From Isoetes taiwanensis (Eukaryota; Streptophyta; Lycopodiopsida; Isoetales; Isoetaceae), in assembly GCA_021234155.1 (NCBI GenBank), contig JAJEKV010000059.1, positions 2,434,182-2,498,181 of the forward strand: DNA of 64,000 bases. Reading direction: 5' to 3'. Of the stretch, positions 10,741-64,000 are shown piece by piece. The notes beneath the pieces were generated by a model. The model worked only from the letters and a program-made list of their open reading frames with translations. It searched no databases and was not told the DNA's origin. Within the stretch, counting starts at the first letter, position 1; each line of letters begins with the position of its first letter. A program made the position numbers and the translations under genes.

Positions 10741-10794
10741 GAATAGTCCTATGAAACAAACAGCGTAGAGAACAACAATGTTTTGTATGTGTTG

Positions 10795-11973
10795 AAAAAT
10801 AGTCTACCGACGATGCATGCGGCGCTCTGGGCGACGGTTAGGGTGAGGCCATTGCCTCCCCACCCTACCTCCGGTACAACACCGGATTCTTGAAGGAGAC
10901 CAGTGATCGGTGAGAGGCCAGGCCAGGGTTTTGGGAATCGATCTGTGAGCAGTTTTTAAAATCTTTCCCAGGTTTTTTCGAGTTCTAGCTGTTTTGGCGG
11001 TCTTGGATTCTGTTTAGCTTTGTTCTGCTTTTCTTGAATCTTCCTTGCAGTCTTAAGAATTCATTTGCTGGCCTTTGGTAAATGCAATCTTGAGTCTGGG
11101 TCGACCTGGGAATGAGGTACATTGTAGCTCAAGCCTTACAAATCGTGGCAGTTTGAATCTTGGATTATTCTGTGGAGGTTTCATCTGCAGTAGAAGCATC
11201 GTGGATCTTTCTTGGAATTTGCTGGTTTATTCTTACCCTTTCCTACTGGCGGGAAGACTAAATATGTGGTTCAGGAAAAAACAGGTACCCAAGCAGTTCT
11301 GGTTTCTTTATCTTGTAATACAAGCAGGTTGAGTAGATTATTTTGGATTGGATTGCCGAGCTAGGGACAAGCTGATACCTATCTTGCACCGGGCTTTAAG
11401 GGAGAAGTCTGGCGGATGGAAATATTCTTTTTCTAGCCAGCTTCAGCGCCAGGTTGAATGCTTAACCCGACAATGCAGCATTTGATTCAATTTATTTTAC
11501 AGATATGCTTGGTTATAAGAGGGGAAATTGGAACTCATGAAACAGTGGCAGTTTCTATGAGCAAAGTGGCAGGTTGCTCTTCTAACACTGTTTTTTTCCT
11601 CGATCATACATTTAGTAGCATGGTAAGAATAAGCAGAGGTAGCTTGGTGTAGGAAGGTTGCCTACCCCACATCAAAGATTTATATGATAGTAATGCTAGT
11701 GATTTTGGTTTCACGGTGCTCCTGTGGAAATCAAGGATGTATGGGCTCCTTGATGGATCGTTTCAGAAGACATTGCGCAGGTCAGGCATCCTCGGATTTC
11801 TATCTCTTTCTTTTGATGTTATGCTTCTCTTTTAAATAAGTTTCAGTTTCAAAGAGGATGAAGATGTTGAGGTTACTCCTGTAGTAATCCTCAATAAAAC
11901 TTGAAGCATTGTACTCTGTACTTTTTATTCCATAAATATAAAATACAACCTTGCCCTCAAAAAAAAAAAAAAA

Positions 11974-12012
<39 letters not shown>
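10795..12012 (+). mobile_element. 1.2-kb retroposon with poly-A/(AAT)n tail and 18-bp target-site duplication
   Basis: The insert is flanked by a perfect 18-bp direct repeat AATGTTTTGTATGTGTTG (10777-10794 and 12013-12030). Its 3' end is a ~17-bp A-run at 11959 that passes into an (AAT)n microsatellite, as LINE or processed retroposons often show. Only short non-conserved frames are found inside; no RT, endonuclease or recognisable host gene. The 5' part is GC-richer (CTCCGGTACAACACCGG). It is most likely an internally deleted LINE or a SINE/LINE chimera, inserted into the pseudogenes on either side. TSD and tail are seen directly. Confidence 0.8.
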
Positions 12013-12016
<4 letters not shown>

Positions 12017-12030
12017 TTTTGTATGTGTTG

Positions 12031-12743
12031 CCCGTAAGTGGCCTTCATCCATCAGTTTCTTTCTTCTTTGTGTTGTACATGCCTTTTTCTGAAGGTTCCG
12101 TTCAAGTTTGTGACTAGCAGGAACCTTAAATTCGAACAAGTACTCTTTTCATTGAGGTAAGTCATCATCTGAGAGTGTGACACGAGGAGTTTCTTCGTCA
12201 GAAGGTTCAATAGCTGTTGGTGTGGCATTTGGTGTGGGCTCGTCAATGGAAAATGGAGAAGGACGGTCCCAAGGAAACAACAGTCTCGGCTAGTGTCTTA
12301 GTTCAACGGCTCCAGAAGTTTCATACAAAGGAGTAGCTAGACGTTGAGTGCTACTGCTGGGAGCTGCTATTGGGGCAAGGGAGTCAGGTGGGGAAGGTGT
12401 TAATGGTATTGGCGGTGGTAGTCTGCGCTGAAGTAGTCGTGCTGAAGGTAGTGTAGCTGAAGAATCCATTCTCTGTTCTGGTTGTGTTGAAGGTGTGAAT
12501 TGCACAGGCGAAGGAGCCTACGTTCAGCTTGAGGTGGGGGTGTTAACTCGAAGGAGGAAGTACGCGTCCGGGAGGTTCCGGTGGTGTAAACTGGACAGGT
12601 CGTGGGAGTCTATGTGGCACAGGAGGTGGGCTTTCTCTCTCGGAATCAGAATCAGGAGAAGTGAATAACACAGGTGGAGGAAGTCTACGAGTCGGTTGGG
12701 GATGTTCTGAAGCACTATTAACACCAGACATTTCAAGGATCAA
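12031..12743 (-). pseudogene. Unknown Pro-rich/acidic/basic protein, broken (cassette 1, leftward gene)
   Basis: Reading leftward from an ATG at 12731 (or 12743), the protein is Pro/Ser-rich ('PPPVLFTSPDSDSERESPP', 'RPVQFTPPEPPG'), then repeats a similar 'PVQFTPSTQPEQRMDSS' block. Next come an acidic stretch 'EPSDEETPRVTLSDDDLP' and a basic end 'KLERNLQKKACTTQRRKKLM'. It is broken by a stop near 12545, frameshifts near 12290 and a TGA at ~12155; the retroposon at 10795-12012 lies just past its end. It diverges from the ParB-methylase-like gene across a ~960-bp spacer full of TATAAATTTATA palindromes. A TATTTAAG at ~12985 could be its TATA box. No family recognised; the disordered, charged make-up resembles an accessory DNA-binding or regulatory protein, which is inference only. 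Confidence 0.4.
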
Positions 12744-12752
12744 AGGAGTGGT

Positions 12753-13483
12753 CGGTATAAATTTATACCGCGGGCAGTCTGCTCTGGAAAAATAGACTTA
12801 AGTAACAAAACACCGTATAAATTTATAAGAAGACTAAACAAGAAGGAAAGACAGAGGATGACGTATATGAAATGCTATGGACAGACGCTTTACCAAAGGG
12901 CAGAGAACCGAAGTACTTAAAGCCGGCGAAGGCGCACTCATTTCCCACATAAGAGTAATGGAATCGAGGCGCTAGCCGCTCTGCCTTAAATACCTGCCCC
13001 TGTTTGCTCTCCAGCTTGCGTATAAAGATCTGCATCCGGACATGTCCACGTAAGTTGCGTTTCCGTACGGCTTTTATTTTTTATTATTTAGGTTTTCGTT
13101 TTGTTGTGTCCTCGAGCGGTATTTTTATACCGCTCAGTGGTAAGTTCGTGAGTGCTTTGACATGGGTGTTAACGTCATGGTAGAATTTTGTACCATTTTG
13201 TCTTTCTACATTGTAGAAAGTTAGAACACGACACCTAATCGGTATAAATTTATACCAATTAAGTGGCTGGGTTACAGAACACGGTATAAAATCTTAGATG
13301 TCTAAGCCTTACGCCACGGTATAAATTTATACAGTTTGAGCGTTTGGACGCGTTAAAAATTTATGCCATCTGTTCGTTTTTAAAAACTAAAGAACCTTTA
13401 ACCTTGATCTTGGTATAAATTTATACCGTAGTCAGCCACAGAAGAATATCGTTATGGACTCGACACGGTATAAATTCATACCA
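12753..13483. repeat. Palindrome cluster CGGTATAAATTTATACCG in divergent spacer
   Basis: Perfect or near-perfect copies of an 18-bp palindrome occur at 12753 (perfect), ~12813, ~13116 (variant GAGCGGTATTTTTATACCGCTC), ~13238, ~13284 (half), ~13316, ~13411 and ~13464. The core TATAAATTTATA reads as a TATA box on both strands. The same motif recurs only in noncoding parts of the cassette: intron 1 (~14088), the intron after 15412 (six copies) and the intron after 16706 (~16727). I saw none elsewhere in the window. Confidence 0.85.
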
Positions 13484-13703
13484 TTTTGACAAATCTTGCT
13501 AGAATATTGTGTAATTTACCGTAGTTTAGGCACAGGAAGTGTTCGAAACTGCTTTCTAAAGTGTAGGTTTTGGTATTTATTGTGTTGTAGAAAACGCTAT
13601 TTTGAAGGCCAAATTAACGTATAAAACACGATATTTTGCTGAATTCTGTACTTAAACATCAAATACGTCATGTTTACTTGAATGCAGCTCAAAGCAACTC
13701 ACC

Positions 13704-15412
13704 ATGAAGTTCAAAATGCCTAGAATGTCTGAGACTCTTACTCCGGAGGTGGAGACCTTTGATTGTAAAGATCTCCAATGGTTTGTGCATAGAGGTGCAA
13801 GGAAGAGAGCTCCTATAGATGTCTACCTCTTCTTGGCTAAAACTTCAGCGAAAGGGAAGTTCAAGGCGTCCGAATTCTATCCGGCCGGGGAACTCGCTTG
13901 TATCATGCCCACAGGAGAGGATGACGAGATCAAAACAAAGTGCACAAACAACGGCCGGGACATTTTGTACATTGTCAACTCCACCATGTTGCAAATGGGC
14001 TTGTGCAAGCAAAAAGATGTCTACGACTACCTCGACGAAAGTTTATCGGAAGGCCATGTAAGCTTCCTCTTTTTCTTTTCTTCTCCGTATAAATTTATAC
14101 GAATGTCTACTGAACCTTGGTGCCATTGCAGGACATTGTGGACGTTATTCAGTCAATTGTTAACTGTGAAGACCCTACTGTTATTCCAGGCTTGTGGTAT
14201 CCTGTGGAACCTGAACAAGATGAAGAAAAAAATGACGATAAAGTAATTGTCGAGGAAGTAGAAGAAGAGGAGTCTGAGCCAGAAGAAAATAAAATGACAG
14301 CTGCAAAAAAAAGATCTCAAGTGGTAGACACACAACCGCCAGTGAAGAAACCTCGGAGAACAAAGCAACTGAATAAGAAAGAATCTGAAGATGCTCTCAA
14401 AAAGGCACCTGGGGTTGATATGAACGTGAAACCATCAGACAAGGCAAGTGAAATTTTGAAGAAGGTGGCCGAAACGAAACTTGTGAAGGAATCAATTTCT
14501 CTCATGCATCAACACCATAAGGCCACCAAAAAATGAAAGTGGGGTACAAGTCCGAAAGCTGTACGCTGCACATGTGGGTTTATTGAAGCAAAGAATGCGA
14601 CGGAATCCACATGCACATGTTTCGCCCCTTATTGTCATGGTAAACAGGGAACAATGTCCGGAGCTTAGTCAGTACAAAAAAGCTGACTTTGAAGATTATA
14701 TTTACTATGTTCTGGGTGGCACACACAGCTACAAGGCAAGATCAGAGGAAGTAAGCAGGAATGAGGTGTGGAAGACTGTCGAGGCCCACATTTACGTGGG
14801 CCTTACTGATGAAGAAGCTAAAATTGGCGCTGTTGTTAGCCACAACATTAATAATGATTTTAGAATGAGGATGAGCCTCATTGATAAGATAAGGTTTATG
14901 CATAGAGAATTTATAGAGTTCAAATCCCTTCATGGAGAAGATTTTAAAAAGCAAAAAAAATAAGCCACAGGAACTCAGGGAGGCGTGCATTAGGGCATAA
15001 GCATGCTACACCCTATCAAAAAAAGTACCATTTAGGAACCATAAAACTACCTAAATAAGTACCCAAGACTGGGTACTGGGTACTTTTTTAATGTCTCAAT
15101 AACTGCAAGAGTTAAATTGCATGCATTGATTTTGACCTTCAATAGTGTTGTCTCTATCTTAACCTTGAACATTAATATGCTTTTGACATTTTATGTTGAG
15201 TTTTTGACTTAGTTTTGACCAAAAGAAGAAGGAAACAGTACCCAATCCAAAAGTACCCAGTCCAGGTACTTTGGCAGGTTCCAAAAATGGTAGGGTGTAG
15301 CATGCATATGCCCATTACAGAGTGCTGCCTGTCTTACGACACAGAGAAAACTCCTATCATGGCTGTAAGGCAGTACGATAACTATTTCCAGCTTGCTTTT
15401 AGAGATGGTCAG
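13704..15412 (+). pseudogene. ParB/sulfiredoxin-like domain protein, 5' part of a ParB-methylase gene
   Basis: Exon 1 (13704-14057) starts MKFKMPRMSE and ends in phase 0 at GT. The intron (14058-14131) contains one palindrome. Exon 2 begins at 14132 ('DIVDVIQSIV'), passes through an acidic linker and a basic NLS-like segment ('KKRSQ', 'KKPRRTKQ'). It then enters a domain reading 'LYAAHVGLLKQRMRRNPHAH', 'SPLIVMVN', 'YYVLGGTHSYKA' and 'VEAHIYVGLTDEEAKI'. This is the order expected of a ParB-like fold: the substrate-box strand, the GGxHxxxA motif, then 'v-y-G-L-sDEEA' followed by a helix with 'HN'. Two +1 shifts, each in an A-run (14528-14533 and 14952-14960), and a 321-bp MITE (14993-15313) interrupt an otherwise continuous frame that ends 'AFRDGQ' at a GT donor (15412). 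In bacteria ParB domains bind CTP or cut or bind DNA and are often joined to DNA methylases. Domain call is by motif, without a search. Confidence 0.5.
14993..15313. mobile_element. 321-bp MITE inserted in a coding exon
   Basis: Terminal inverted repeats of at least 24 bp begin GGGCATA(A/T)GCATGCTACAC at both ends, with a direct ATTA on each side (14989-14992 and 15314-15317). Subterminal sequence is also inverted (GTACC/GGTAC blocks around 15030 and 15260). Excising the element plus one ATTA joins 'PQELREACI' to 'TECCLSYDTEK' in frame, which confirms insertion into coding sequence. The GGG-ended TIR and T/A-rich target resemble PIF/Harbinger Tourist elements, but the superfamily is uncertain. 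Confidence 0.85.
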
Positions 15413-15487
15413 GTAAGACTAAACCATTGGTTTGAATAACATTGAGACAGTGGTGGCTTGTGTGTGCTTCGTTTTAGAATGGTAGGA

Positions 15488-15648
15488 CCGCGTGCCTCAA
15501 GCGGTATATTTTTATACCGCCTCGTGCAAGCGGTATAAATTTATACTGCAAGATGATTTCGGTATAAATTTATACCGCACGCCCAAAGCTATATAAATTT
15601 ACACCGCTTCGGGTAAGCGGTATAAATTTATACCGCGTGAGGCACGCT
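15488..15648. repeat. Foldback array of six palindromes with outer inverted repeat
   Basis: Inside the intron after 15412, six copies or variants of CGGTATAAATTTATACCG lie in ~150 bp. The block is bracketed by an inverted repeat (GCGTGCCTCA at ~15490 and TGAGGCACGC at ~15638). The whole unit could fold as one long hairpin or as several cruciforms. A seventh, half-diverged copy sits at ~15703. Confidence 0.8.
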
Positions 15649-15748
15649 GTAGATAATTAAACTGCAGCTGCAATGGTATTTCAGCTGGTTGTACTCCCGT
15701 TCTTGTATAAATTTATACCTTCTTTTCGTTGCTAATCTTTGTGTGCAG

Positions 15749-16950
15749 AGAATTGACTAGCATTTGGCATTTTAGGTGTAAGTTTTACAAGAGAGAATCT
15801 TTTGCATGTTCGAGGATGGTCAACTAAAGGAACAACAAGGAAGTACAAGTAAGAAGCCAAAGAAAGGAGGAGAATCGAAGCAAAAAAATATGAGCATCGT
15901 GCCCTGGACGCAGCTTCAGGGCCTCAAAAGTAAAGAAATACTAGTTAGGCTTCTTGAGAAAGTAGTGTCAGGGCAGTTCACCTTAGACGAAATGGCAAAG
16001 AAGGCAAAGACGTAAGTAGCATTAACCTTAAGCAATGTTTTAACTAGGTTTTTATGATTAAACTCTTCTTTGTGCAGTCAAAAGGATATAATGGATTATC
16101 AGACAGAGCTCATGCAGCAACTTAACCTTGAAGAATGGGAAGAATGCAGAGCTCTTTATCCAGGCAGCATTGCTGACAATGTTATTAGAGAGCACGCTGT
16201 TAACTTTAACGGCTAGGTAGGTGATTTTAATTTCTTATTTCCTTAGTGCCTTCTTACTGAGCATTTTTTATGACAGAACCAGAAAAAGGGCTACCTGCAG
16301 GACTTTTAGGTCTTGTTCGACGGACAAAAGAAGAAGCTAGACTTAAAGCTATAGAACAAGGCAAAGAGGTCGCTGCAAGCAGTTAGACGGACGAGTTCGA
16401 CAAGTTTACCCTTTTCGATCAGGATTGTTTGTACAGAGTTGTACTAGGGGACTGCAAAAATTTGCCGAATTTTGTGCCAAAGCAAAACTACACCCTTTGC
16501 ATTGCAGATATTCGTTATGGCTTCAAAATAAAGGACAGCATGTTTGATGATGAAGCTTTCAGTAGTAAGCAGGTCAAAGCATTTCTTGAGGGTCTGAAGG
16601 AGGCCGATAATTGGCGTGTCGTTATTTTCCACTCTGACCTGCAGACCATGTCTGTCTTAATGCCAATGGGTTTAGTGTGTAACGTTGGTTTTGAAAATTG
16701 TATTTGGTAAGGTTCTAAACCTCATGGTATAAATTTATACGGTTACTTAAGCTAATAGTGGCCTTTACAGGTTAAAGACAAATGTCAAAGGAAATGGTGG
16801 GGGACCAAGACTAGATACGCCTAATAACAAAGTTTTATACACGTATAAAACAAAAGATAAGCCATGGTGTGTTCACCATTATAAGGTGTGCACCAATGAC
16901 GGCACACCTACCAAGCAAACCATTGCATCCTACACGGGACTACGCCTCCT
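15749..16950 (+). pseudogene. DNA N4/N6-methylase-like domain, 3' part of the ParB-methylase gene
   Basis: Exons continue downstream: ~15749-16011 ('GSTSKKPKKGGESKQKN', 'IVPWTQLQGLKSKEILVRLL'), 16078-16216 ('DIMDYQTELMQQLNLEEWEE'), 16277-16706 and 16771-~16945, with agreeing phases at the last three junctions. The third reads 'LYRVVLGDCKNLPNF', then 'YTLCIADIRYGF', which sits where methylases have the DPPY motif (here degenerate, lacking both Pro), and 'WRVVIFHSDLQ'. The last gives 'WLKTNVKGNGGG' and 'NNKVLYTYKTKDKPW', resembling the motif region after DPPY. Three in-frame TAG codons (16214, 16307, 16352) all fit CAG changed to TAG. The entry frame at 15749-15805 is shifted. The sequence then runs straight into the kinase gene without a clear end. 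Family call by motif order; activity is very unlikely now. Confidence 0.45.
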
Positions 16951-16956
16951 TTCAAA

Positions 16957-18366
16957 TTGCATAGTTTTTCTAGCATTGAGGAGATAATTTTTCATGTTCG
17001 AGGCATATATAAGGATCTCAAAAGCAGAATGGAGACTATCTCTGTGTGCACTAATCAATGCAAATTTCTTATGGAGACAATCAAATTCGTTGTAGAATGC
17101 ATGGATGTGTGGCATTCTACAGGCCTGGATATCCAGATCTCTAACGACATTTTAGAAGGGCTGATAGTTTTGTTGTATAAGGTGATCATTATGTTTGCCA
17201 AATGCCAAAAAAAAGGTGCGTGGTTGCTGCAGGCTGCAGTTGATGAAGAGAACAGACTCACAAATTATAGCAATGCATGAAGATATATGTAAATATGTTG
17301 GCCTTATTGGTCCCTTGGTTGCAGATGGAACGGAAGTTCCTCAGACATTACTGCTCCAAGAGGAGAGGAAAAAACGAGATCTAAATTCAGCTGCAGATTC
17401 GGATAGGCAACATCTGCTTCAGCTTCTGGAGGCAATGGCAATGTCCCAAGAGAGTATACTGGCAGCGTTTGCTTACAAGGTAATGCAAAGCAAAAATTTT
17501 GCAGAACCTATCATAGAGTATGATGAGTTCAAGAATCAAAGAAATATTGGAAGAGGTTCATCTGCAGTAGTATATAAAGTAGAATGGCTGCAGCAGCAAT
17601 TTGCAGTAAAGGAGTTTGATGATGTGAATGATGATGTTTTCAACGAGGAACTCTCTGCACTTGTTTCTGTAAGACATCCAAACATAGTGCGTTTATTTGG
17701 TCATTCTCAAAATCCGCGAATTGGATCTCATTGTCTCATCATGGAATTGATGGACATGAATTTGGGACATCTGATCAATGCACGGAAAAGATTGGGAGAG
17801 AAAATGGCCCTAGACATATTTCTTCAAGTTGCAAAGGCTATGGAATACCTCCATGAGAACGATGTCGTTCACCGTGATCTTAAGCCCCAGAACATTATGG
17901 TGTCTTTTCATTGCTCAGATAAACAGTGTGGAGGACCTGTGGACGAGATCGTCCTTGCTAAAGTAGCAGATTTTGGATTGGCTAAGACCAAATTTGAATC
18001 CTCAAAAGGTACCTTAGGAAAAGGAACGTATTATTACATGGCACCCGAGTTATTCCATGGCAATGACGGGTACATTACAAGGAAGATAGATGTTTATAGC
18101 TATGGCATGACATGTTACCATCTCTTGAGTGGAGAAAAACCATTTTCTAGTATTCTTGATAGCCAACAGGAGCCGTTGATGGAGAGATTAAACAAACTTT
18201 CTACATTGTTAACCAGCGGACAGCGGCCAGCATTGAACTCCAATGTTCCAGAAATTTTTCATGAATTACTAGCAAAATGTTGGCATTCAGATCCGTCATG
18301 ACGACCGCCTTTTAAGGATATTTGCATGATCCTCGAGGATTTGCGCAAGAAGATGCTTCTTAGGAG
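16957..18366 (+). pseudogene. MLKL-like protein: four-helix bundle plus kinase, frameshift and premature stop
   Basis: The N-terminal part (16957-~17270) is an all-helical segment ('FSSIEEIIFHVRGIYKDLKS', 'DILEGLIVLLYKVIIMFAKC') of the kind that forms the MLKL/HeLo-like four-helix bundle. One frameshift near 17270 joins it to the kinase frame (to 18301). The kinase keeps all key elements: Gly loop GRGSSAVVY (~17543), FAVKEF Lys (~17607), HRDLKPQN (~17870), DFG (~17970), APE (~18043) and DVYSYGM (~18090). A TGA at 18299-18301 cuts the protein between 'CWHSDPS' and 'RPPF' of subdomain XI; the frame continues to a GT donor at ~18376. CGA to TGA would explain it. Plant MLKL-type proteins form membrane-active oligomers in immunity; that role is family knowledge. 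No start Met is in frame upstream, so a 5' exon is missing or cut by the neighbouring cassette. Confidence 0.65.
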
Positions 18367-25244: not shown

Positions 25245-28200
25245 TATCAATATATGAACTTTAAGTGTTTCAAAAAGAATGTGAATTGCTTTTTGTTACT
25301 AAATAATTGCCCTACTATAAACCTAAAGAATTAGAAATTTGAAAGTCAAATTTGCATTGCAAGCCAATGGTCACCCTAGTGGGTAAGGTCAAATCGAAAC
25401 GTCAAGCCAAATTTGAACCCAAGTGAAGGAGTCAAACCAAAGCCAAAGTCATTCTAAGTAAGTAGGATCGAACTTAACACTAGAGTGGTCCCGGGGACCA
25501 TTCCTGATCCATGGACCAGAATTGGTCCAGTTGACCCACTGCCACTTAAACCATTATATCTGAGAATAGATATTCCAATTTTACAATATATCACCGCCAT
25601 ATTAATCTTTACTTGATTCTTAATGACCTTTAAGAATCTCACAACCAATGAGCTCACCTATACGTTGTGGTGATTGTCCAAAAGTTAGAGAATTTGGCAG
25701 TTTCTGCAACAGTCCAGAACTGCATTCTTGGGTTTTCCTAGCATAAGATGACCTAAACATTGTTAAATTTGGAAGTAATTGCCTATTTATGATAGAACAC
25801 TTTAATTTGTATATTTTCAGCTTTGGTTGCTATCATCTAACATCTGTGGAAGCCAATAAACCCCATTTTGTTAAAAAATGCTGCTTGCGGTTTCGGAATT
25901 ATTTCTCTCTTATTATTACAAGTTTTGACTTAATTCTTGTGGCCATGAGTTGTTAACTATATGAACTACAATCTCATGTTTTTTTGGAGTGTTCATAAGT
26001 TATATCAACTTCCAAATTTTATAAAGAATTATATATATAGAATTTTGGACAAAATTATATGTTAAAATGATTCAAAATCACAATTTTTAAGTATCAGTAG
26101 GGCAATAAATGATGCATTCTATTTATATCTATATAGAAGATCACTTTATCAACTTGCAAGTAGTGTAGTTAGTGTTTAATTGTGCAATTAACTGGATTTA
26201 AAGATTATGTTCAGCAAACAGGATTAACACATAAGAGGTTAAATATGTGAGTTAATTCTAAAATTATAGGCTAAAGACTGAGCATTTACATAGCTAGTGA
26301 TGTTTATTGATGATTGGAAGTGAAGATCTTGAAGTTCAACTATGAGAATCAACAATAAGACCATATGACCTTTGATGTGTTCTTATTAGCTTTGTAAAGA
26401 ATACGCTACATTCCTCCAAATATGCCTTCCAAATGGTTCAAAATATGACAAGGGACATATATATAGGTCCATTATGTAGGTTGGGTGTCCTTCTTGCAAA
26501 AAAATATGGAGAAACATAGTTATTTCTTACTTGTATAGAACTAGTATATCCATTGCTGCTACAAAGCATTGGAGTTTTTGTAGGATAACATTACATATAG
26601 GTCATCTTTCATGTACATTATATTTTTCATGAATGCGGGCCTTCCTTTGCAATACAACTCTCTAATTTCATAATGAAATAACATGTTATTTGGAAGCTAC
26701 GAATATAATTCGGCATGGACCATTTATGGTCCACAGCTAGACCAATTGTATAGAGCTTATATCTCTCTCTAGCCCTATCCATTTTGTCCCTATAATAATA
26801 CCATGGTTTCTTACCTTTAATAACATAATTCTTGAAAGGTGTGAGTGGAACTCCACGTAGATTCAATTGGTGAATAAGTGCCTCATAAATCCACAGTTGT
26901 TTGTGTTTAAACGTTGCCCTCAAATTATGCAAGCTCGCTTAACCAACCAATTTTATCCTATAGAGAATTATATGCATAACATATATTCCAAAGTTGAGAT
27001 CAAAATTGATTAAGATGTTGCGTCTATTAATTTTTAAACTTTCAGTCCTGTGGACCAATAATGGTCTGCAAGTAGAACTGCACATAGCATTCTAACTTGA
27101 CTTTTTATGGTCATAAACTTTCATATTTTTCTTTGAATCTTTTTGCATTGATCTCATGACATGGGAAATTGTATGAATATGATTTTTCAAAGTCATATCT
27201 CGAGACATAAATCTAGAATAAACATAGAAGACATATTTGAAGCTGATGCTATTTAGATTAATCCAAATCTCAAGGTTATGATCAACAAATATTTTCATTT
27301 ACTCAAGTAGATCGACTATGTTTTTAATTTGGACTTCTTTTGCTTCAACATATGCATGTTGTTATTTTTCAAGTGAGTCTGGGTTCTGTGGACCAGTTCT
27401 GGTCTACATATAGGACTGCAGACAGAAACCTTCTATGAATTATTCAGAGCATATGCTTGGGTCTTTTTCTGTGATTTTCTTTCCATTTGTCTAATATCCT
27501 TCAACACTTTCATGCTATGATTTTCTCCTACACCACGTAAGGTATTTTTCTTCCAAAGAGAGGGTTTTATACACTTTCACAACTTCCCTAAAATTCAAAT
27601 CGTAAAGGGAAAGGCAAAACTACAATTTCAAGACCAAACATTATTTTTTGTTTGTAGAGGTACTTGTGTACTACTAGTATGCCAAATTTGAGCTCGAAAC
27701 TCAAAACCTTGCAAAAGTTCTTGTTTATACAATGGAACTGCCTTCTGGGAACCAATACTGGTTCCCTGCAGACAGAGACCCTGTCATGTTTGAACGGCAA
27801 TATCTCCCTTACTAGAGTTCGGATTGGCATGAGGATTTTTGGAACTTTCTCTCCATCTCCCATAGAAAAATCACATGACAATCAAAAAAATCAAAAAAAT
27901 CTTTTTGCCAAGACAGTTTCACTTTGTTTGAACTTGAAGGATTTTATACTTGACCCCCTTGAGTTTGCCTAAGCATAAGTCACAACAATGGGGTCAGCTA
28001 CATTTTTAGGTATTTTTCCCATGAAGCACAACTGCCATATATGATGTCCTAGGAAGGGCTTGACAAGATTTTACACAATCGATTTTATATGATTTTTTTA
28101 GTGAACAGTCCAAATGGACCATTTCTGGTCCATCACGGGACCAATCTAGTGTTAAATTTAAATAAGGGAATCTTAGAGAATCTAATGGATATGCAATTGA

Positions 28201-29699
28201 ACGAATGTACTTTTTTATCCTTTTTTATCACGGCCACATTACGCAGAGCTATGTTGTCATCACAACCTATTTCTGAACTAGGTTTTGTGATCCGGTTTTC
28301 TTGTGGAGGCTTGAGCTTCCCTTGTTTTGGAAAGATTATGTGGTTATGTGGGATTGTGGCTCTGTGGGAAGATTTTATGGCTCTGTGGTGAGCAAGGTTG
28401 GCCTCTGAGTGTATGTCAAACCCTGTGCTTGTTGTTTTGTTCTTCATGGTCATAAATTATATGATATATGGGGTTTTGGCTGTATGTGTGTGCCGAATCC
28501 TCTTTGTTCTGTAAGGCTTTGGCAGCAGTGGGTTTTCCAGGTTGTTGCAGGCCTAGCATGGAAGGCGTTGATCAGTCGACAGAGGAGACGGCCATCCCAT
28601 CTTCAGGCTGGATCCTTCTGTTATAAGTGCTAGTATTGATGCATCTTGTCCTGATCCTTTAGTGTTTCCTCCAGAGGGTGAAGAGTTATTTACTGCAGAA
28701 GAATTCATAAGATGTATTATTCAAGTTGGCGACGAAGCTCACAGGATTGCAGCTTCGCTTAGAATTCTTAGGAGGCATCTGAGTAGTTTCTATGCATCTA
28801 TTGATTCCGCCATTTCTAGTGTTGCTTTGGAACAGCTGGGAGCACTGATGTCTGAATTGCATGCTTTGAGGTCTCATATGAGTCTTGCCCTGGGGTTGCT
28901 AACGCAGGAGATTTGGTAGCTTGATGCTGTGATCAGGCGTGGAGCATCTGGGGAATCTAGGAATTAGAACTTGCTTCTGTTTTGCTCTTTTTTGAGATAA
29001 CTTACTTCTGTTTTCCTTTTTATGTAAACTTTTTGAGTGAGGACTTGGCTTCACATGCTGGTGGCAGTTCTGCCACGTGTACATTTTTATCTTGTGAATA
29101 CTAATATTTGTGTTTATGGTTTTTAGATTTATTTCATATCTTTCATATTGTTATACTAACACATGTATTGTTTTAGAGGGCTTCGGCCCCCATGCATAAG
29201 AGAGATTCCAAGTTTTGGGATCTCCCTTATGTTCGGATGAGCATTGGCATTAATACTGAGTTCGATTCCCCAGGCTCATGTATTTATACTTGTATTCATT
29301 ATAAAATGAATGGTTTGGGCGCAAAATTTCTTGTGAAGTCAACTATAGAAGTTTGACTTAGCAGAGACCATATATAGGCGGCCGAGATCGATGCAGATAG
29401 AATATCCAGTTAAAGATGCTTCAATCCAATTGCCCATAAAAAATAATAGGAGCTCGAGCAAAGTGGTTCTTGTATGAAGAACCACTCCAGGAATAGCACA
29501 AAAGCCTTCTCTATCTCTGGATACAATGCACCAAAGCTTATTTGTGATGCATGTTCCAGGTCTAAGAAGGATGAAAGCATGGACATGACCTGATATGAAG
29601 CATTGTAGACCCTTCATATTGCACCTACAGGGCTTTGAAATGGACTTAACCCTGCACACATACCATTCTCATATTGATTGGAATCCAATCTCCTCAAAC
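25245..29699 (+). repeat. Repeat R copy 1, interrupted by a TTAA-flanked transposon
   Basis: About 1.78 kb (25245-25477 plus 28152-29699) matches 41926-43722 in inverted orientation along its whole length. Shared landmarks include a conserved hairpin (AAGGGAGATTCC ... GGGATCTCCCTTA, ~29190-29230), the phrase 'LWCIVSRDREGFCAIPGVVL' readable on the minus strand at ~29430-29560, and a plus-strand coding-like block (28558-28919). In copy 1 that block has frameshifts but keeps 'PPEGEELFTAEEFIRCIIQV' and 'DEAHRIAASLRILRR'. The element type is not recognised; a decayed gene or LINE-like unit are both possible. Confidence 0.75.
25478..28151. mobile_element. 2.67-kb non-autonomous DNA transposon, TTAA target, CACTAGA ends
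   Basis: The ends are inverted: CACTAGAGTGGTCCCG on the left and CACTAGATTGGTCCCG on the right (15/16), each followed by a GGACCA-N4-TGGTCC palindrome. The element is bounded by TTAA on both sides (25474-25477 and 28152-28155). Its empty site survives at ~43466 in the inverted copy of the surrounding repeat, with one TTAA. A TTAA duplication is the hallmark of piggyBac; CACTA/EnSpm elements also begin CACTA but duplicate 3 bp. No transposase frame is present. Inside, the palindrome recurs every ~335-370 bp (26717, 27052, 27390, 27749, 28116). The piggyBac-like assignment is inference from the target. Confidence 0.85.
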
Positions 29700-41299: not shown

Positions 41300-41925
41300 G
41301 AATGTGGCCTCTTCAAATTGTTATATAATTGATATTTCATTCTATTTGCATTGTCTGTTAGGATTAACCCCTGATTTGAGCTCTTTTTCACGTGGACAAA
41401 ATCTAAAATCGGTTTCCCGGCAACCAAAAGTCTCGGCACACGAGCTCCACGAGTTTGATTGCTGGCGCGTATCTTTATCCCTATCCCTTGATTATCTGGG
41501 TTTTTGGCATATTCTTAGTAGATGCTAGTATATGTCTAGAAAATGCCAAACAATGCTCCAAACGTGTTGTAGGTTGTAAACTATCGGTTGCCCTTCTTGA
41601 TGGACGGCTGCTCTGAAACTGTGGTCTAGCCGGTAACGCTAGCTCTTTTGTTCCTCTTCTTCCACCCCTGCCAAAAGCTCTTCTGGCATACATAGGCGTG
41701 TATCTGAGAGGAATATGCAGAGGTTACATTCTAATGTTTTTCAGCCCAGATCTAGCTCTATATTCGACTCCGCATATCAATCCGGCTTTGCGTATCAAGG
41801 CTTTCCTTATTAAGTTAGGAGTAGATTCTGGCTGTGGCGATTAAGAAAGCTTACGATGCTGCACCCATATCGTTTCAGGCCATACAGGGTATGGTTCTTG
41901 CATTTTAATCATAATTTTTTAGGGT
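41300..41925. other. 3' flank of the glycosyltransferase, no gene recognised
   Basis: Contains the expected 3' UTR and unremarkable intergenic sequence with short frames only. The boundary with repeat R is near 41926. Confidence 0.4.
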
Positions 41926-42036
41926 TCGAGGAGATTGGTTTCCAATCAATATAAGAATGGTATGTGTGCAAGGTTAAGTCCATTTCAAAGCCCTGTAGGT
42001 GCAACATGAAGGGTCTACAATGCTTCATATCAGGCC

Positions 42037-42282
42037 ATGTCCATGCTTTCATCCTTCTTAGACCTGGAACATGCATCACATAAGCTTTGGTGCATTGTAT
42101 CCAGAGATAGAGAAGGCTTTTGTGCTATTCCTGGAGTGGTTCTCCATACAAGAACCACTTTGCTCGGGCTCCTATTATCTTTTATGGGCAATTGGATTGA
42201 AGCATCTTTAACTGGATATTCTATCTGCATCGATCTCGGCCGCCTATATATGGTCTCTGGTAAGTCAAACTTCTATAGTTGA
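42037..42282 (+). CDS. Unknown conserved frame in repeat R
   Basis: Frame reading 'LWCIVSRDREGFCAIPGVVL', 'GNWIEASLTGYSICIDLGRL'. The copy at 29659-29339 (minus strand) keeps the same 80 residues with few changes, mostly conservative. No start codon choice is convincing; it may be one exon. Family not recognised. Confidence 0.35.
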   Translation: MSMLSSFLDLEHASHKLWCIVSRDREGFCAIPGVVLHTRTTLLGLLLSFMGNWIEASLTGYSICIDLGRLYMVSGKSNFYS

Positions 42283-42771
42283 CTTCACAAGAAGTTTTGC
42301 ACCCAAACCATGCATTTTATAATGAATACAAGTATAAATACATGAGCCTAGGGAGTCGAACCCCAGTATTAATGCCAATGCTCATCCAAACATAAGGGAG
42401 ATCCCAAAACTTGGAATCTCCCTTAAGCATGGGGGCTGAAGCCCTCTAAAACAATACATGTGTTAGTATAACAATGAAAGATATGAAATAAATCTAAAAA
42501 CCATAAACACAAATATTAGTATTCACAAGATAAAAATGTACATGTGGCAGAACTGCCACCAGCATATGAAGCCAAGTCCTCACTCAAAAAGTTTACATAA
42601 AAAGGACAACAGAAGTAAGTTATCTCAAAAAAGAGCAAAACAGAAGCAAGTTCTAATTCCTAGATTCCCCAGATGCTCCACGCCTGATCACAGCATCAAG
42701 CTGCCGAATCACCTGTGTTAGCAACCCCCGGGCAAGGCTCATATGAGACCTGAAAGCATGCAATTCAGACA

Positions 42772-43065
42772 TCAGTGCTCCCAGCTGTTCCAAAGCAACA
42801 CTAGATTAATGGCAGAATCAATAAATGCATAAAAACTACTCAGCTGCCTCCCAAGGATTCTAAGCGAAGCTGCAATCCTGTGAGCTTCGTCGCCAACTTG
42901 AATAATACATGTTATGAATTCTTCTGCAGTAAATAACTCTTCACCCTCTGGAGGAAACACTAAAGGATCAGGACGAGATGCATCAATACTAGCACTTATA
43001 ACAGAAGGTTCCAGCCTGAAGACGGGATGGCCTGTCTCCTTTGTCGACTGGTCAACGCCTTCCAT
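42772..43065 (-). CDS. Unknown helical ORF in repeat R
   Basis: From an ATG at 43065 the frame reads 'MEGVDQSTKETGHPVFRLEP', then 'PPEGEELFTAEEFITCIIQV', 'DEAHRIAASLRILGRQLSSF', and ends at ~42772 after a probable frameshift relative to copy 1, which continues 'EQLGALMSELHALRSHMSLA'. Heptad-like spacing suggests an amphipathic helical bundle. Conservation of protein-like reading between two diverged copies argues for past coding function. Family not recognised. Confidence 0.4.
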   Translation of the reverse strand: MEGVDQSTKETGHPVFRLEPSVISASIDASRPDPLVFPPEGEELFTAEEFITCIIQVGDEAHRIAASLRILGRQLSSFYAFIDSAINLVLLWNSWEH

Positions 43066-43722
43066 GCTAGACCTGCAACGACCAGGAAAAACCCACTGTT
43101 GCCAAAGCCTTACAGAACAAAGAGGATTCAGCACGCACATATAGCCAAAAACCCATATACCATATAATTTATGACCACGAAGAACAAAACAACAAGCACA
43201 GGGTTTGACATACACTCAGAGGCCAACCTTGCTCGCCACAGAGCCACAAAATCTTCCCATAGAGCCACAATCCCACATAACCGCATAATCTTCCCAAAAC
43301 AAGCTCAAGCCTCCACAAGAAAACCGGAACACAAAACGTAGTTCAGAAATAGGCTGCGATAACAACATAGCTCTGCGTAGTGTGGCCGTGATAAAAAAGG
43401 ATAATAAAGTACATTCGTTCAATTGCATATCCATTAGATTCTCTAAGATTCCCTTATTTAAATTTAAGTTCGATCCTACTTACTTAGAATGACTTTGGCT
43501 TGGATGTCTTTGGCTTTGGTTTGACTCCTTCACTTGGGTTCAAATTTGGCTTGACGTTTGATTTGACCTTACCCACTAGGGTGACCATTGGCTTGCAATG
43601 CAAATTTGACTTTCAAATTTCTATTTCTTTAAGTTTATAGTAGGGCAATTATTTAGTAACAAAAAGCAATTCACATTCTTTTTGAAAAACTTCTACACTT
43701 AAGTTCATATATTGATATTTGT

Positions 43723-53046: not shown

Positions 53047-54479
53047 GAGTCATTGTACTAGCAGATCCTGGGCAAGCTGTTAATGATGAAAGGCTAGGGG
53101 CAATTTCAATGTTGGAAGACAACTGGAAAGGTAAGGGAATGTTTTGGTTGTGTCAAGCAATTGGAGGTTCCTTGCATCATGCCATGGCCTATGAATAGTG
53201 TTCAGTTTGTGGAGGATTACCTTTTTCCAGAGCCAGAGGTTGTTGGGGATAATGATTGTCTTGATCCTGATCCATTGGCAGTGGGTACCCTGAACCTAGG
53301 CAAACGGGGAGAAGTATCAGTTGTCAGACATTATCTTAGCAAGAGAGCCAAGTTGATTAGTGATACAACACCTGAGACTATGTTGAAGGTTAGGGGCTTA
53401 CATTGTTGTTGGGCTAGTTGTATGCAATTCTTTACAAGAGAACAATTGGTGGAAGCAAGAGCCACTATTCAAGAGTATACTGTTGATGAAAGAAGGACCT
53501 ACATGTACTCAATTTTCGAGCATGCACTTCAGGATGAAAGAGATCCAAAAAATAAAAGATACCCTTTGCTAGGCAAATGGATATGTAAAAAAGCATGGCG
53601 GAGTATCCATGCAATTCCAGATTCATCATGGTACAATTACAAAAAAAAGCAGGCAGAAGGGACAAGGATTGCTTTGCATGGAAATAATGGCTTGTTGAGA
53701 CCAACCGCTAGGACATTGGCTGCGAGGGAGATATTTGAAAAATATATTGAGTTCAATGCAGAGTGTATGCCACACAAAAGCAGAAGGGATGAGAAGAGAA
53801 CAGCAGTTGTTGAGAAAAGGTTACCATCACATTGTACTCAAAAAAGTATTTTGGAGGAAGTGAATTCCCTACTTCGAGAATTGGAAATTCCTCCAATATC
53901 CCAACCTAGCTTTAGTAGGCTATGGAAGAAGCATTTCAATCATGTGACCATAGCAACTTCAAACAACTTTGCAACCAGAGTCAAAGGGCTAGGATCTAGT
54001 GCACAGGTTGGACCTTCACGTGCTAGAGCTCAAGATCTGCCTAGAAGGCTCCTCGTGCAACCCAATAATTGTGCTTGGGGTTTTTGATGCCTGGGCATAC
54101 CCATGAGGATGTGGATGCATTTTTTGGCAAGTATAGTTGTGTACTGAAGCAGCACTACTCCAAACCCTATAGGCTCTCTCGTAAAAGAGTGCCTGATTGG
54201 AAGAGTTTTGTGGATGGTTATACCTTGGATCTTGAAGCTCATTCTAGGCCTCTTCAATTCACCACTTTCTGGGTGGGAGATGGGATTCCAATATTTCAAT
54301 GGAAGACGAGACCTTCAGAGGAAGAGTGGAGAGGAGGGGAGGAAATATGGCATAGGGATGAGAATAGCAAGCCTATGATGCCTCCAGGTAGAAATGTGAG
54401 GATTACAATACCTCAAGAGACAAGGAAGAAGGCTATGATATCTTTGGGGTTGCTTGAAGAAACTGAAAGAATTATGTAA
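53047..54479 (+). pseudogene. DUF7869-like element gene, internally deleted and frameshifted
   Basis: The main frame (53161-54087) gives 'RGLHCCWASCMQFFTREQLV', 'ERRTYMYSIFEHALQDERDP', 'YPLLGKWICKKAWRSIHAIP' and 'SWYNYKKKQAEG'. This N-terminal pattern is typical of the widespread repeat-borne proteins that end in DUF7869. Near 54030 comes 'DLPRRLLVQPNNCAWGF', then in another frame 'LGFLMPGHTHEDVDAFFGKY' (54080-54140) and a ~110-residue tail. In full-length members a long central segment with the substrate-like catalytic core separates these; here it is deleted between ~53990 and 54030. An upstream frame (53047-53150, 'ADPGQAVNDERLGAISMLED') may be a 5' exon. These genes behave like transposon cargo; biochemical function is not established to my knowledge. 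Confidence 0.55.
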
Positions 54480-61149: not shown

Positions 61150-61415
61150 GTTTTGCTGATTGAAGGTGTTGTTTTTAAAGTGGACACGAAATGTCCACAG
61201 TTATTTTTTCAAGGAGTTGTGGTTTTTATTTTTTTGGAGATGTGGTTTTTTAAGGAGGTATGTTTTTTGTTAAAAGAATTATGGTTTTTGGTTTTTGAGG
61301 TTACATTGTTTTTAAGGAGGTGTATTTTTTTGAAACGTGGTTTCTAAGTAAGTGTAGTTTTTAAGAAGGCATTTTTTAAAGGATGTATAGTTCTCTAAAT
61401 CGGTGTGGTTTTTAA
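61150..61415. repeat. Degenerate T/G-rich minisatellite
   Basis: Units related to TGTGGTTTTTAAGGAGGTG recur every ~20-30 bp with many changes. It directly precedes the CCACCTAGG minisatellite but shares no sequence with it. Confidence 0.6.
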
Positions 61416-61429
61416 GGCTCAAACATGCC

Positions 61430-64000
61430 ACATAGGCTCCAACATACCACCTAGGCTCCAACTATGCCACGTGGGCTCCAACATGCCACCTAGGCTACAC
61501 CATGCCAAGGTGGCTTCAACTTGCCACCTAGGATCCAACATGCCACCTAGGCTCCAACATGCCACCTAGGCACCAACATGCCACCTAGCATGTCGAGGTG
61601 GCTCCAACATGCCACCTAGTCCAACATGCCACCTAGGATCCAACGTGCCACCTAGGCTCAAACATGCCAAGGTGGCTCCAACTTGCCACCTATATAGGGT
61701 CCAACATGCCACCTAGACTCCAACATGCCACCTAACATGCTGAGGTGGCACAAACATGCAACCTAGGCTCCAACATGTCACCTAGACTCCAACTATGCCA
61801 CGTGGGCTCTAACATGCCACCTAGGTTACAACTATGCCATGTGGGCTGCAACATGCCACCTAGGCTCTACCATGCCAAGGTGGCTCAAACATGCCAACTA
61901 GGATCCGACATGCCACCGAGGCTCCAACATGCCACCTAGGCTCAAACGTGCTAGGGTAGGTTCAACTTGCCACCTAGGATCCAACATGCCACCTAGGCTC
62001 CAACTATGCCACGTGGGCTCCAACATGCCACCTAGGCTCCACCATGTCAAGGTGGCTCAAACATGCCACCTAGGCTCCAACATGCCACCTAACATGCTGA
62101 GGTGGCTCAAACATGCCACCTAGGCTCCAACTATGCCACATGGGATCCAACATGCCACCTAGGCTCCAACATGCCACCTAGGCTCAAACATGCCAAGGTG
62201 GGCCCAACTTGCCACCTAGGATCCAACATGCCACCTAGGCTCCAACTATGCCACATGGGCTCCAACATGCCACCTAGACTCCAACTATGCCACATGGGCT
62301 CCAACATGCCACCTAGGCTCCAACTATGCCACCTAGCATGCCGAGGTGGCTCAAACATGCCACCTAGGCTCCAACATGCCACCTAGGCTCCAACTATGCC
62401 ACATGGGCTCCAACATGCCACCTAGGCTCCACCATGCCAAGATGGCTCCAACTTGCCACCTAAGATCCAACATGCCACCTAGGCTCAAACATGCCAAGGT
62501 GGCTCCAACTTGCCACCTGGGATCTGACATGCCACCTAGGCTCCAACTATTCCACGTGGGCTCCAACATGCCACCTAGGCTTCACCATGCCAAGGTGGCT
62601 CCAACTTGCCCCCTGGGATCCGACATGCCACCTAGGCTCAAACATGCCAAGGTGGGTCCAACTTGCGACCCAGGATCCAACATGCCAAGGTGGCTCCAAC
62701 TATGCCACGTGGGCTCCAACATGCCACCTAGACTCCACCATGCCAAGGTGGCTCAAATATGCCACCTAGGATTCAACATGCCACCTAACATGCCGAGGTG
62801 GCTCCAACATGCCACCTAGGCTCCAACATGCCACCTAGGCTCCGATTATGTGACATGGGCTCCAACATGCCACCTACGCTACACCATGCCAACTAGGATC
62901 CAACATGGGCTCCAACTATGCCACATGGGCTCCAACATGCCACATAGGCTCCACCATGCCAAGGTGGCTCCAACTTGCCACCTAGGATCCAACATGCCAC
63001 CTAGGCTCAAACATGCCAAGGTGGCTCCAACTTGCCACCTAGGATCCGACATGCCACCTAGGCTCCAACTATGCCACGTGGGCTCCAACATGCCACCTAG
63101 GCTTCACCATGCCAATGTGGCTCCAACTTGCCACCTAGAATCCAACATGCCACCTAGGCTCAAACATGCCAAGGCGGATCCAACTTGCCACCTAGGATCC
63201 AACATGCCACCTAGACTCCAACTATGCCACGTGGGATCCAACATGCCACATAGCCTCCAACTATACCACATGGGCTCCAATATGCCACCTAGGCTCCACC
63301 ATGCCACCTAGGCTCCAACTATGCCACCTAGCATGCCGAGGTGACTCAAACATGCCACCTAGGCTCCAACGTGCCACCTAGGCTCCAACTATGCCACATG
63401 GGCTTCAACATCCCACCTAGGCTCCACCATGCCAAGGTGGCTCCAACTTGCCACCTAGGATCCAACATGCCACCTAGGCTCAAACATGCCATAGTGGCTC
63501 CAACTTGCCACCTAGGATTCGACATGCCACCTAGTCTACAACTATGCCACGTGGGCTCCAACATGCCACCTAGGCCTCACCATACCAAGGTGGCTCCAAC
63601 TTGCCACCTAGGATCCAACATGCCACCTAGGCTTAAACATGCCAAGGTGGGTCCAGCTTGCCACCTAGGATCCAACATGGCACCTAGGCTCCAACTATGC
63701 CACGTGAGCTCCAACATGCCACCTAGACTCCAACATGCCACATGGGCTCCACCATGGCAAGGTGGCTCAAATATCCCACCTAGGATCAAACATGCCACCT
63801 AACATGCCGAGGTGGCTCAAACATGCCACCTAGGCTCCGATATACGACATGGGCTCCAACATGCCACCTAGGCTACACGATGCCACCTAGGATCCAACAT
63901 GGGCTCCAACTATGCCTCATGGGCTCCAACATGCCACCTAGGCTCCACCATGCCAAGGTGGCTCCAACTTGCCACCTAGGATCCAACATGCCACCTAGGC
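61430..64000. repeat. 19-bp minisatellite with higher-order repeat, runs off the window
   Basis: More than 130 tandem units of ATGCCACCTAGGCTCCAAC and variants (TATGCCACGTGGGCTCCAAC, ATGCCAAGGTGGCTCCAACT, GGATCCAAC forms). Variants follow a repeated order: blocks starting near 62340, 62845 and 63335 correspond unit for unit, so a higher-order period of ~490-505 bp exists. The 19-bp unit is not a multiple of three, so 57-bp peptide repeats ('NMPPRLQLCHVGS') stay open on both strands; these are compositional, not genes. Confidence 0.95.

Follow-up and report, generated by a model that had tools for sequence, protein, structure and literature searches.

A decayed DNA transposon of Isoetes taiwanensis with a DUF7869 gene, a candidate ParB-methylase accessory gene and palindrome arrays

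Some algal DNA transposons carry accessory genes that pair a ParB-like domain with an N4/N6 methyltransferase. Sola1-1_Ec32 of Ectocarpus is one such element, and its describers propose that the accessory protein binds and modifies the element's own sequence (PMC12477816); similar proteins are reported from green and red algal transposons (Iyer et al., 2011 and Petroll et al., 2025, as cited in PMC12477816). The Ectocarpus passages available from that paper name no target site. Here we describe a candidate gene of this kind in a land plant, the quillwort Isoetes taiwanensis, within what we read as the decayed copy of a transposon with terminal inverted repeats (TIRs) and its own palindrome arrays. 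The window is the whole 64,000-nt stretch analysed (assembly GCA_021234155.1, contig JAJEKV010000059.1, positions 2,434,182 to 2,498,181), and coordinates below are those of the window unless another copy is named.

Sola1-1_Ec32, as described, and probably the Isoetes element as well, combine the two domains in a single protein, whose gene lies on the other strand from that of the (here probable) transposase. The Ectocarpus element is set apart by its description as a 21.5-kb Sola-1 superfamily member from a brown alga, whereas the Isoetes element is 8.6 kb long, lies in a plant genome, and has a DUF7869 partner and palindrome arrays. Phage ParB-methylases (PHROG 498, e.g. L009) share the ParB-then-methylase order, putative in Isoetes, with the methylase motifs in register; the Isoetes gene differs from them by DIRY or DIPY in place of DPPY, an extra N-terminal domain and linker, and introns. 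Prokaryote-type amino-methylases are found in eukaryotes as the bdelloid N4CMT, which has a chromodomain, and the Marchantia N4-methylcytosine (4mC) enzyme, which is without additional terminal domains (PMC8885841). Unlike these two, as far as they are described there, the Isoetes gene lies inside a transposon and includes a ParB-like block. A first-pass annotation, made from the letters of the window, knew of no described plant element of this make-up. That stands for land plants, in that the literature searched yielded no plant ParB-methylase transposon, DUF7869 partner or candidate sites, but the algal transposons (PMC12477816) are precedents; such genes were already known in brown, green and red algae, and the plant case with DUF7869 and candidate sites appears new.

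The reading we prefer, with a probability of roughly 0.6, is that of a decayed TIR transposon with a DUF7869 gene and, divergent from it, an accessory ParB-methylase gene whose product would bind and methylate the element's own palindrome arrays. What is shown are the element with its ends and copies, the methylase motifs, purifying selection on the gene, and arrays that stand in the same places of three cassettes; binding, methylation and a role in regulation or against silencing are inferred.

Relatives were sought in the plant's own genome through the palindrome. All ten clusters among the GGTATAAATTTATACC matches listed were taken for comparison. Two of these, the C4 copy (L101) and the C16 copy (L108), match all eight cassette pieces of the window and have the divergent leftward gene; in another five (L100, L103, L105, L106, L109) there are matches to exon 1 or to the leftward piece, and three (L102, L104, L107) have no match to window pieces at E 0.01. 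The C16 copy spans 316416-325016 (8601 bp), with 30-bp TIRs identical at 29 of 30 positions and ACCC on both sides. TIR-like ends within 8 mismatches were found in eight of the ten clusters and are absent from L101 and L106. Perfect 4-bp target duplications (AAAT, TTGA, ATAG, ACCC) flank four of the five two-ended copies. The divergent genes lie inside the TIRs in the C16 copy; the C4 copy and the window have the same divergent arrangement without found ends, and the window holds no TIR within 8 mismatches, its copy being without both ends. Shorter copies include a 2.2-kb subfamily with TIRs, 89-91% alike (L100, L107, L109), and a 3.4-kb copy (L104). All four have 6-10 palindromes each and no ParB or methylase exons at E 0.01, and two of them retain traces of exon 1. 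The repeated copies, TIRs, target duplications and DUF7869 neighbour support a mobile TIR DNA transposon family and not a host gene. The first-pass annotation had suspected a mobile element, and the copies and ends bear it out; the search for intact copies and their ends that it suggested, made here in the plant's own genome, led to the C16 copy.

The window copy runs from 10758 to about 16955, minus a retroposon, and is a decayed TIR DNA transposon copy truncated at both ends. Its features are as follows.

10758..10794, minus strand: outermost match to the C4 copy on the left side, leftward gene (blastn, L101 8077-8113 = window 10794-10758, 86%)
10777-10794: one copy of the retroposon target duplication, the last 18 bp of 10758..10794
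12013..12740, minus strand: remains of the leftward gene, an N-terminal portion, rich in proline, of the probable transposase gene (frames, tblastn)
12753..13483, no strand: intergenic palindromes between the divergent genes, starting at 12753, 13240, 13317, 13411 and 13466 (site scan)
13704..14057, plus strand: exon 1 of the putative ParB-methylase gene, N-terminal domain of unknown kind (frames; matches in L100, L101, L103, L105, L108, L109)
14058..14131, plus strand: intron 1, 74 nt, with a palindrome at 14085-14102 (frames, site scan)
14132..14530, plus strand: exon 2, acidic and lysine-rich linker, ending in a frameshift at an A run (frames, codon usage)
14487..14960, plus strand: open frame with the ParB-like block, LGGTHSYKA ... 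GLTDEEA ... HNINNDF (phrog_1033; matches in L101 and L108)
15317..15412, plus strand: remainder of the ParB exon (frames, codon usage)
15413..15793, plus strand: intron 2, with six palindromes (site scan, codon usage)
15794..16011, plus strand: lysine-rich exon, 81% identical in L101 and 61% in L108
16078..16216, plus strand: exon whose frame stops at a TAG (16214), splice site unsure (frames, match to relatives)
16277..16706, plus strand: putative methylase exon, GDC ... ADIRYG ... VVIFHSD ... CIW, with DIRY at 16507-16518 and an in-frame TAG at 16384-16386
16707..16770, plus strand: intron 5, 64 nt, with a palindrome at 16725-16742 (frames, site scan)
16771..16955, plus strand: putative methylase exon continued, LKTNVKGNGGG... 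(match to relatives stops near 16909; frame open slightly beyond)

The rightward gene starts with an ATG at 13704, and its exons, with GT-AG introns, can be traced to about 16955. Its lesions are two A-run frameshifts, in-frame TAGs (16214, 16384) and a 321-bp inverted-repeat insert. The chosen frame is the best of six for codon usage in seven of eight exon stretches, the last exon being the exception; these frames are open throughout the eight scored stretches except for one TAG in the methylase exon. The frame chosen for the one leftward stretch scored is open, without being the best of six for codon usage. The leftward gene has several stops or frameshifts in the window and is split by a 1.2-kb retroposon. 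The first-pass annotation described two divergent intron-bearing remnants: the divergent pair and the rightward introns are there, with the ParB-like and methylase-like blocks as it quoted them, but leftward introns are not evident in the window. Its left limit of 12031 falls short, as the remnant continues past the retroposon to about 10758.

Two insertions interrupt the copy. The retroposon (10795-12012), which sits in the leftward gene remnant, has a poly(A)/(AAT)n tail and is flanked by a target duplication of 18 bp without mismatch (10777-10794 / 12013-12030). The insert at 14993-15313 in the ParB exon is unrelated and resembles a miniature inverted-repeat transposable element; its inverted repeats are 26 nt long (92%), and ATTA stands on either side of it.

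The leftward gene of the C16 copy runs into DUF7869 (PF25273, E 1.9e-52), which Pfam lists as a domain of unknown function. Its position inside a TIR element and its conserved acidic motifs make the DUF7869 protein the probable transposase. This piece is 72% identical in L105 and matches weakly in L103 and L109; it has no window match at E 0.01, the DUF7869 part being absent from the window copy. Compared with the leftward protein from the C16 copy, the leftward remnant in the window shows 44-51% identity (tblastn, window 12740-12023, E 4e-38). A second DUF7869-type remnant lies 37 kb away at 53098-54476 (PF25273, E=1e-7 in its last piece); the DUF7869 piece of the C16 copy gives no match there at E 0.01, which makes this remnant a distant relative.

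The candidate target is an 18-bp palindrome. CGGTATAAATTTATACCG within 3 mismatches has 13 sites in the 64 kb, all inside 12753-16742 and none outside, and no site in 30 first-order Markov sequences of window composition. The perfect 14-mer GTATAAATTTATAC is common to ten of the 13, and the core TATAAATTTATA has TATAAA on both strands. Five sites occupy the spacer between the genes, intron 1 and the last intron have one each, and intron 2 has six; the palindrome-rich spacer of the first-pass annotation is real as to its sites, but only 5 of 13 lie there and the other 8 are in introns. None of the 13 overlaps an exon, a result equalled by 47 of 4230 rotations of the set. Five of the six in intron 2 keep an exact 29-nt period (15502-15635), the sixth being at 15703; the units of this array are 87% alike and the spacers 38%, against 25% for shuffled spacers. 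The RNA fold of the intron 2 region (15412-15795) has a z-score of -7.9 versus shuffles, a strong fold such as a palindrome array would give.

The genome (1,658,258,908 bases in 1110 contigs) contains 7218 exact instances of GGTATAAATTTATACC and none of the reversed control pattern; about 1.4 are expected from base composition, by arithmetic on window frequencies. Chance palindromes are rejected on the Markov controls and the genomic control. The commonest spacings in the window and the ten clusters are 32, 29, 30, 31 and 28 nt. By inspection, the palindromes of the C4 and C16 copies are placed as in the window: introns 1, 2 and 5, the spacer and the stretch immediately before the leftward start hold them, and one in the C16 copy (2486) reaches into an open frame at its 3' edge. 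That the palindromes belong to the element, as the first-pass annotation had it, agrees with their presence together with its genes and ends in other copies. Palindrome-pair scans of viral contigs and genome contigs found nothing. One IMG/VR contig (L001) with a single palindrome is phage, with the site inside an open reading frame (ORF), and was taken as chance.

The methylase call is best examined in the C16 copy. It has ADIPYG at the motif IV position, where the window has ADIRYG, and a cofactor motif, ILDAFSGSGT, downstream of it. This cofactor piece was found in one of the ten clusters, and its membership of the gene rests on the C16 copy and its position. The middle piece matches PF01170 (E=0.0014, under the curated cut-off), and the C-terminal piece matches PF01555 (E=0.0017; 18.8 bits, the cut-off being 26.7) and phrog_498 (E=0.0018). 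Aligned by hhalign to a profile of 84 phage methylases (79 of 80 IMG/VR loci and five others), the C-terminal piece reached probability 87, with 0 of 200 shuffles as good, and the middle piece probability 36, with 1 of 200 as good; the two pieces follow the profile in the correct order. In the C16 copy the putative identity as an N4/N6 methylase is supported by the motifs and by the comparison with profiles. Of the domain calls made by the first-pass annotation, this one holds in that copy, while the ParB call is more weakly supported, by PHROG matches.

The methylase piece of the window, taken on its own, is only suggestive. In hhalign it ranks 8 of 696, and no other row aligns over at least 100 columns; an equal or better result came from 7 of 400 shuffles and from 0 of 294 window ORFs. 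Pairwise scores against five phage methylases gave z-scores of 4.0, 2.9 and 1.6 for three and chance for two, and the exon is 19-29% identical to 22 phage rows. A scan with local hidden Markov models placed the piece 9th of 1729, at 3.9 bits. The window copy has DIRY for the DPPY-type motif and no cofactor motif by pattern search to 26 kb, and does not show the motifs of an active N4/N6 DNA methylase.

The ParB block of the window matches phrog_1033, a ParB-like partition protein family, with E=6.2e-4 over profile positions 44-131, and three phage ParB proteins match the same family over the same positions. With a trimmed block the PHROG match drops to E 0.015. In the C16 copy the block, 74% identical to that of the window, matches phrog_723 (E 0.0037) and phrog_6392 (E 0.011), both ParB-like; in the C4 copy, 75% identical, there is no PHROG match up to E 1. 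The GGxH box can be aligned by eye to phage ParB (GGTHSYKA and GGEHRAQIA), with the arginine missing from what we take to be the CTP-binding GxxR box of ParB. The block is likely to be ParB-like, judged from these comparisons and from the published ParB-methylase pair in transposons, which raised our estimate. The exon at 15794..16011 has VbhA as its best Pfam match (E=0.043, under the cut-off), and a helix-turn-helix there would be a guess by eye. Matches of window pieces in the PDB were unrelated or insignificant, and a pattern search of genome contigs with the ParB piece gave 38 matches, none a relative.

The ParB exon is under strong purifying selection, with a ratio of nonsynonymous to synonymous substitution rates (dN/dS) of 0.097 between the C4 and C16 copies (187 codons, dS 1.16); exon 1 gives 0.136 between L105 and L108 (105 codons, dS 1.78), all these ratios being rough at a dS of 1.2-1.8, near saturation. 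Synonymous sites against the window copy are saturated (proportion of synonymous differences 0.79-0.89), with nonsynonymous proportions of 0.12-0.15 for the ParB exon and 0.34-0.35 for exon 1. The protein has been preserved through old lineages of the element, which sets it apart from a passenger gene that was captured.

Several results, besides the near-saturated dS, weigh against the preferred reading. The single ParB matches are only moderately significant, as nine control strings reached a best PHROG E of 0.0042, none to a ParB-named family. The best Pfam match of the block in the three copies is IgA0_D2 (E 0.01, 0.003, 0.0007), under the cut-off, and the window piece matches no Pfam ParB model up to E 10; in the local models it falls outside the 12 best rows of 1729, and its hhalign alignment to a phage ParB profile covers 8 columns only. 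Pairwise scores against phage ParBs are at chance in 13 of 15 cases, with z-scores of 2.1-2.3 in the other two. AlphaFold2 gave a mean pLDDT (predicted local distance difference test) of 42.3 for the ParB piece alone and 43.7 for the methylase exon with 17 phage rows. The cofactor-motif piece of the C16 copy has no match in the other nine clusters at E 0.001 or in the window at E 0.01, and its best PDB match is trimethylguanosine synthase (E 0.2), followed by NEDD8 and proteasome chains, with CcrM at 0.93. One of the five two-ended copies, L109, has no target duplication. Finally, the clusters were chosen by their palindromes, and the sample is not informative on how often copies lose their arrays.

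As we picture it, the ParB-methylase would bind the palindrome arrays of the introns and of the promoter region that the two genes share, and would methylate the element's DNA there. The mark, or the bound complex, may regulate the divergent promoters, hold off host silencing, or both, and the accessory protein would be selected for the element's sake. Short copies would retain arrays because they use the same ParB-methylase in trans. A bolder version, which we put forward tentatively and would not bet on, is a long-standing plant lineage of DUF7869 transposons with a ParB reader and an N4/N6 writer for their own 18-bp palindromes, marking themselves at thousands of sites, serving non-autonomous copies in trans, and possibly acting as a source of 4mC or N6-methyladenine (6mA). 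The element offers thousands of copies of a candidate site, which forms phased arrays at matching places in three cassettes, and the proposal of self-binding and self-modification made for ParB-methylase transposon genes becomes directly testable. It bears on transposon-written DNA marks against host silencing and on the origin of 4mC and 6mA in plant nuclei.

The palindromes might instead be regulatory or structural sites for the transposase or for host factors, for instance back-to-back TATA-like elements, with the ParB-methylase acting elsewhere. The TATAAA of the core would suit such a role, as would the many sites that lie in the spacer or immediately before the leftward start; however, a promoter needs neither the sites in introns 1, 2 and 5 of three cassettes nor arrays mostly 28-32 nt apart, and we hold this explanation to be unlikely though deserving of attention. 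A partition-like system, in which palindromes akin to parS are loaded with a ParB-like protein so that copies are segregated, bridged or compacted and the methylase is secondary, is improbable. A ParB-like block near clustered perfect palindromes does resemble ParB-parS, yet the palindrome sequence presumably differs from parS, no ParA is among the family matches of the cassette pieces scanned, the GxxR arginine is replaced, and a transposon that sits in a chromosome does not have to be partitioned.

Two further explanations deny the element its mobility or its kind. Introns and purifying selection would fit an ordinary conserved plant gene or a domesticated import that does not move, but the copies, repeated and diverged, bearing TIRs and target duplications and lying next to a DUF7869 gene, leave this very little chance; a single-copy host gene in particular is rejected, given the thousands of genomic palindromes, the cassette copies, and the TIRs and target duplications. 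Just as hard to credit is a relic of a large DNA virus or an integrated phage-like genome. ParB and methylase genes are common in phages, and 499 phage records match a ParB probe; against a viral relic speak the introns, 30-bp TIRs, 4-bp duplications and DUF7869 partner, and window pieces matched nothing in phages or IMG/VR at the sensitivity used, and in plasmids three Vibrio records only (E=0.5). A viral relic was rejected on the TIRs and target duplications and the lack of a phage or IMG/VR match, no search being aimed at viral structural genes. The transposon with an accessory ParB-methylase gene is the reading we retain.

The remainder of the window holds several other features. Just downstream of the truncated methylase part, the open frame 17186-18301 encodes a protein kinase domain (PF00069, E=1.1e-49). 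A UGT gene, which we take to be of plant type, is flanked by long inverted repeats at 28152-29699 and 41924-43467, which are 94-97% complementary over most segments and 12-15 kb apart. An ORF at 516-827 has a C17orf113-type zinc finger (PF25431, E=1e-10) and is perhaps part of another transposon. A degenerate tandem array with a 19-nt unit and about 138 copies occupies 61415-64000, reaching the window end.

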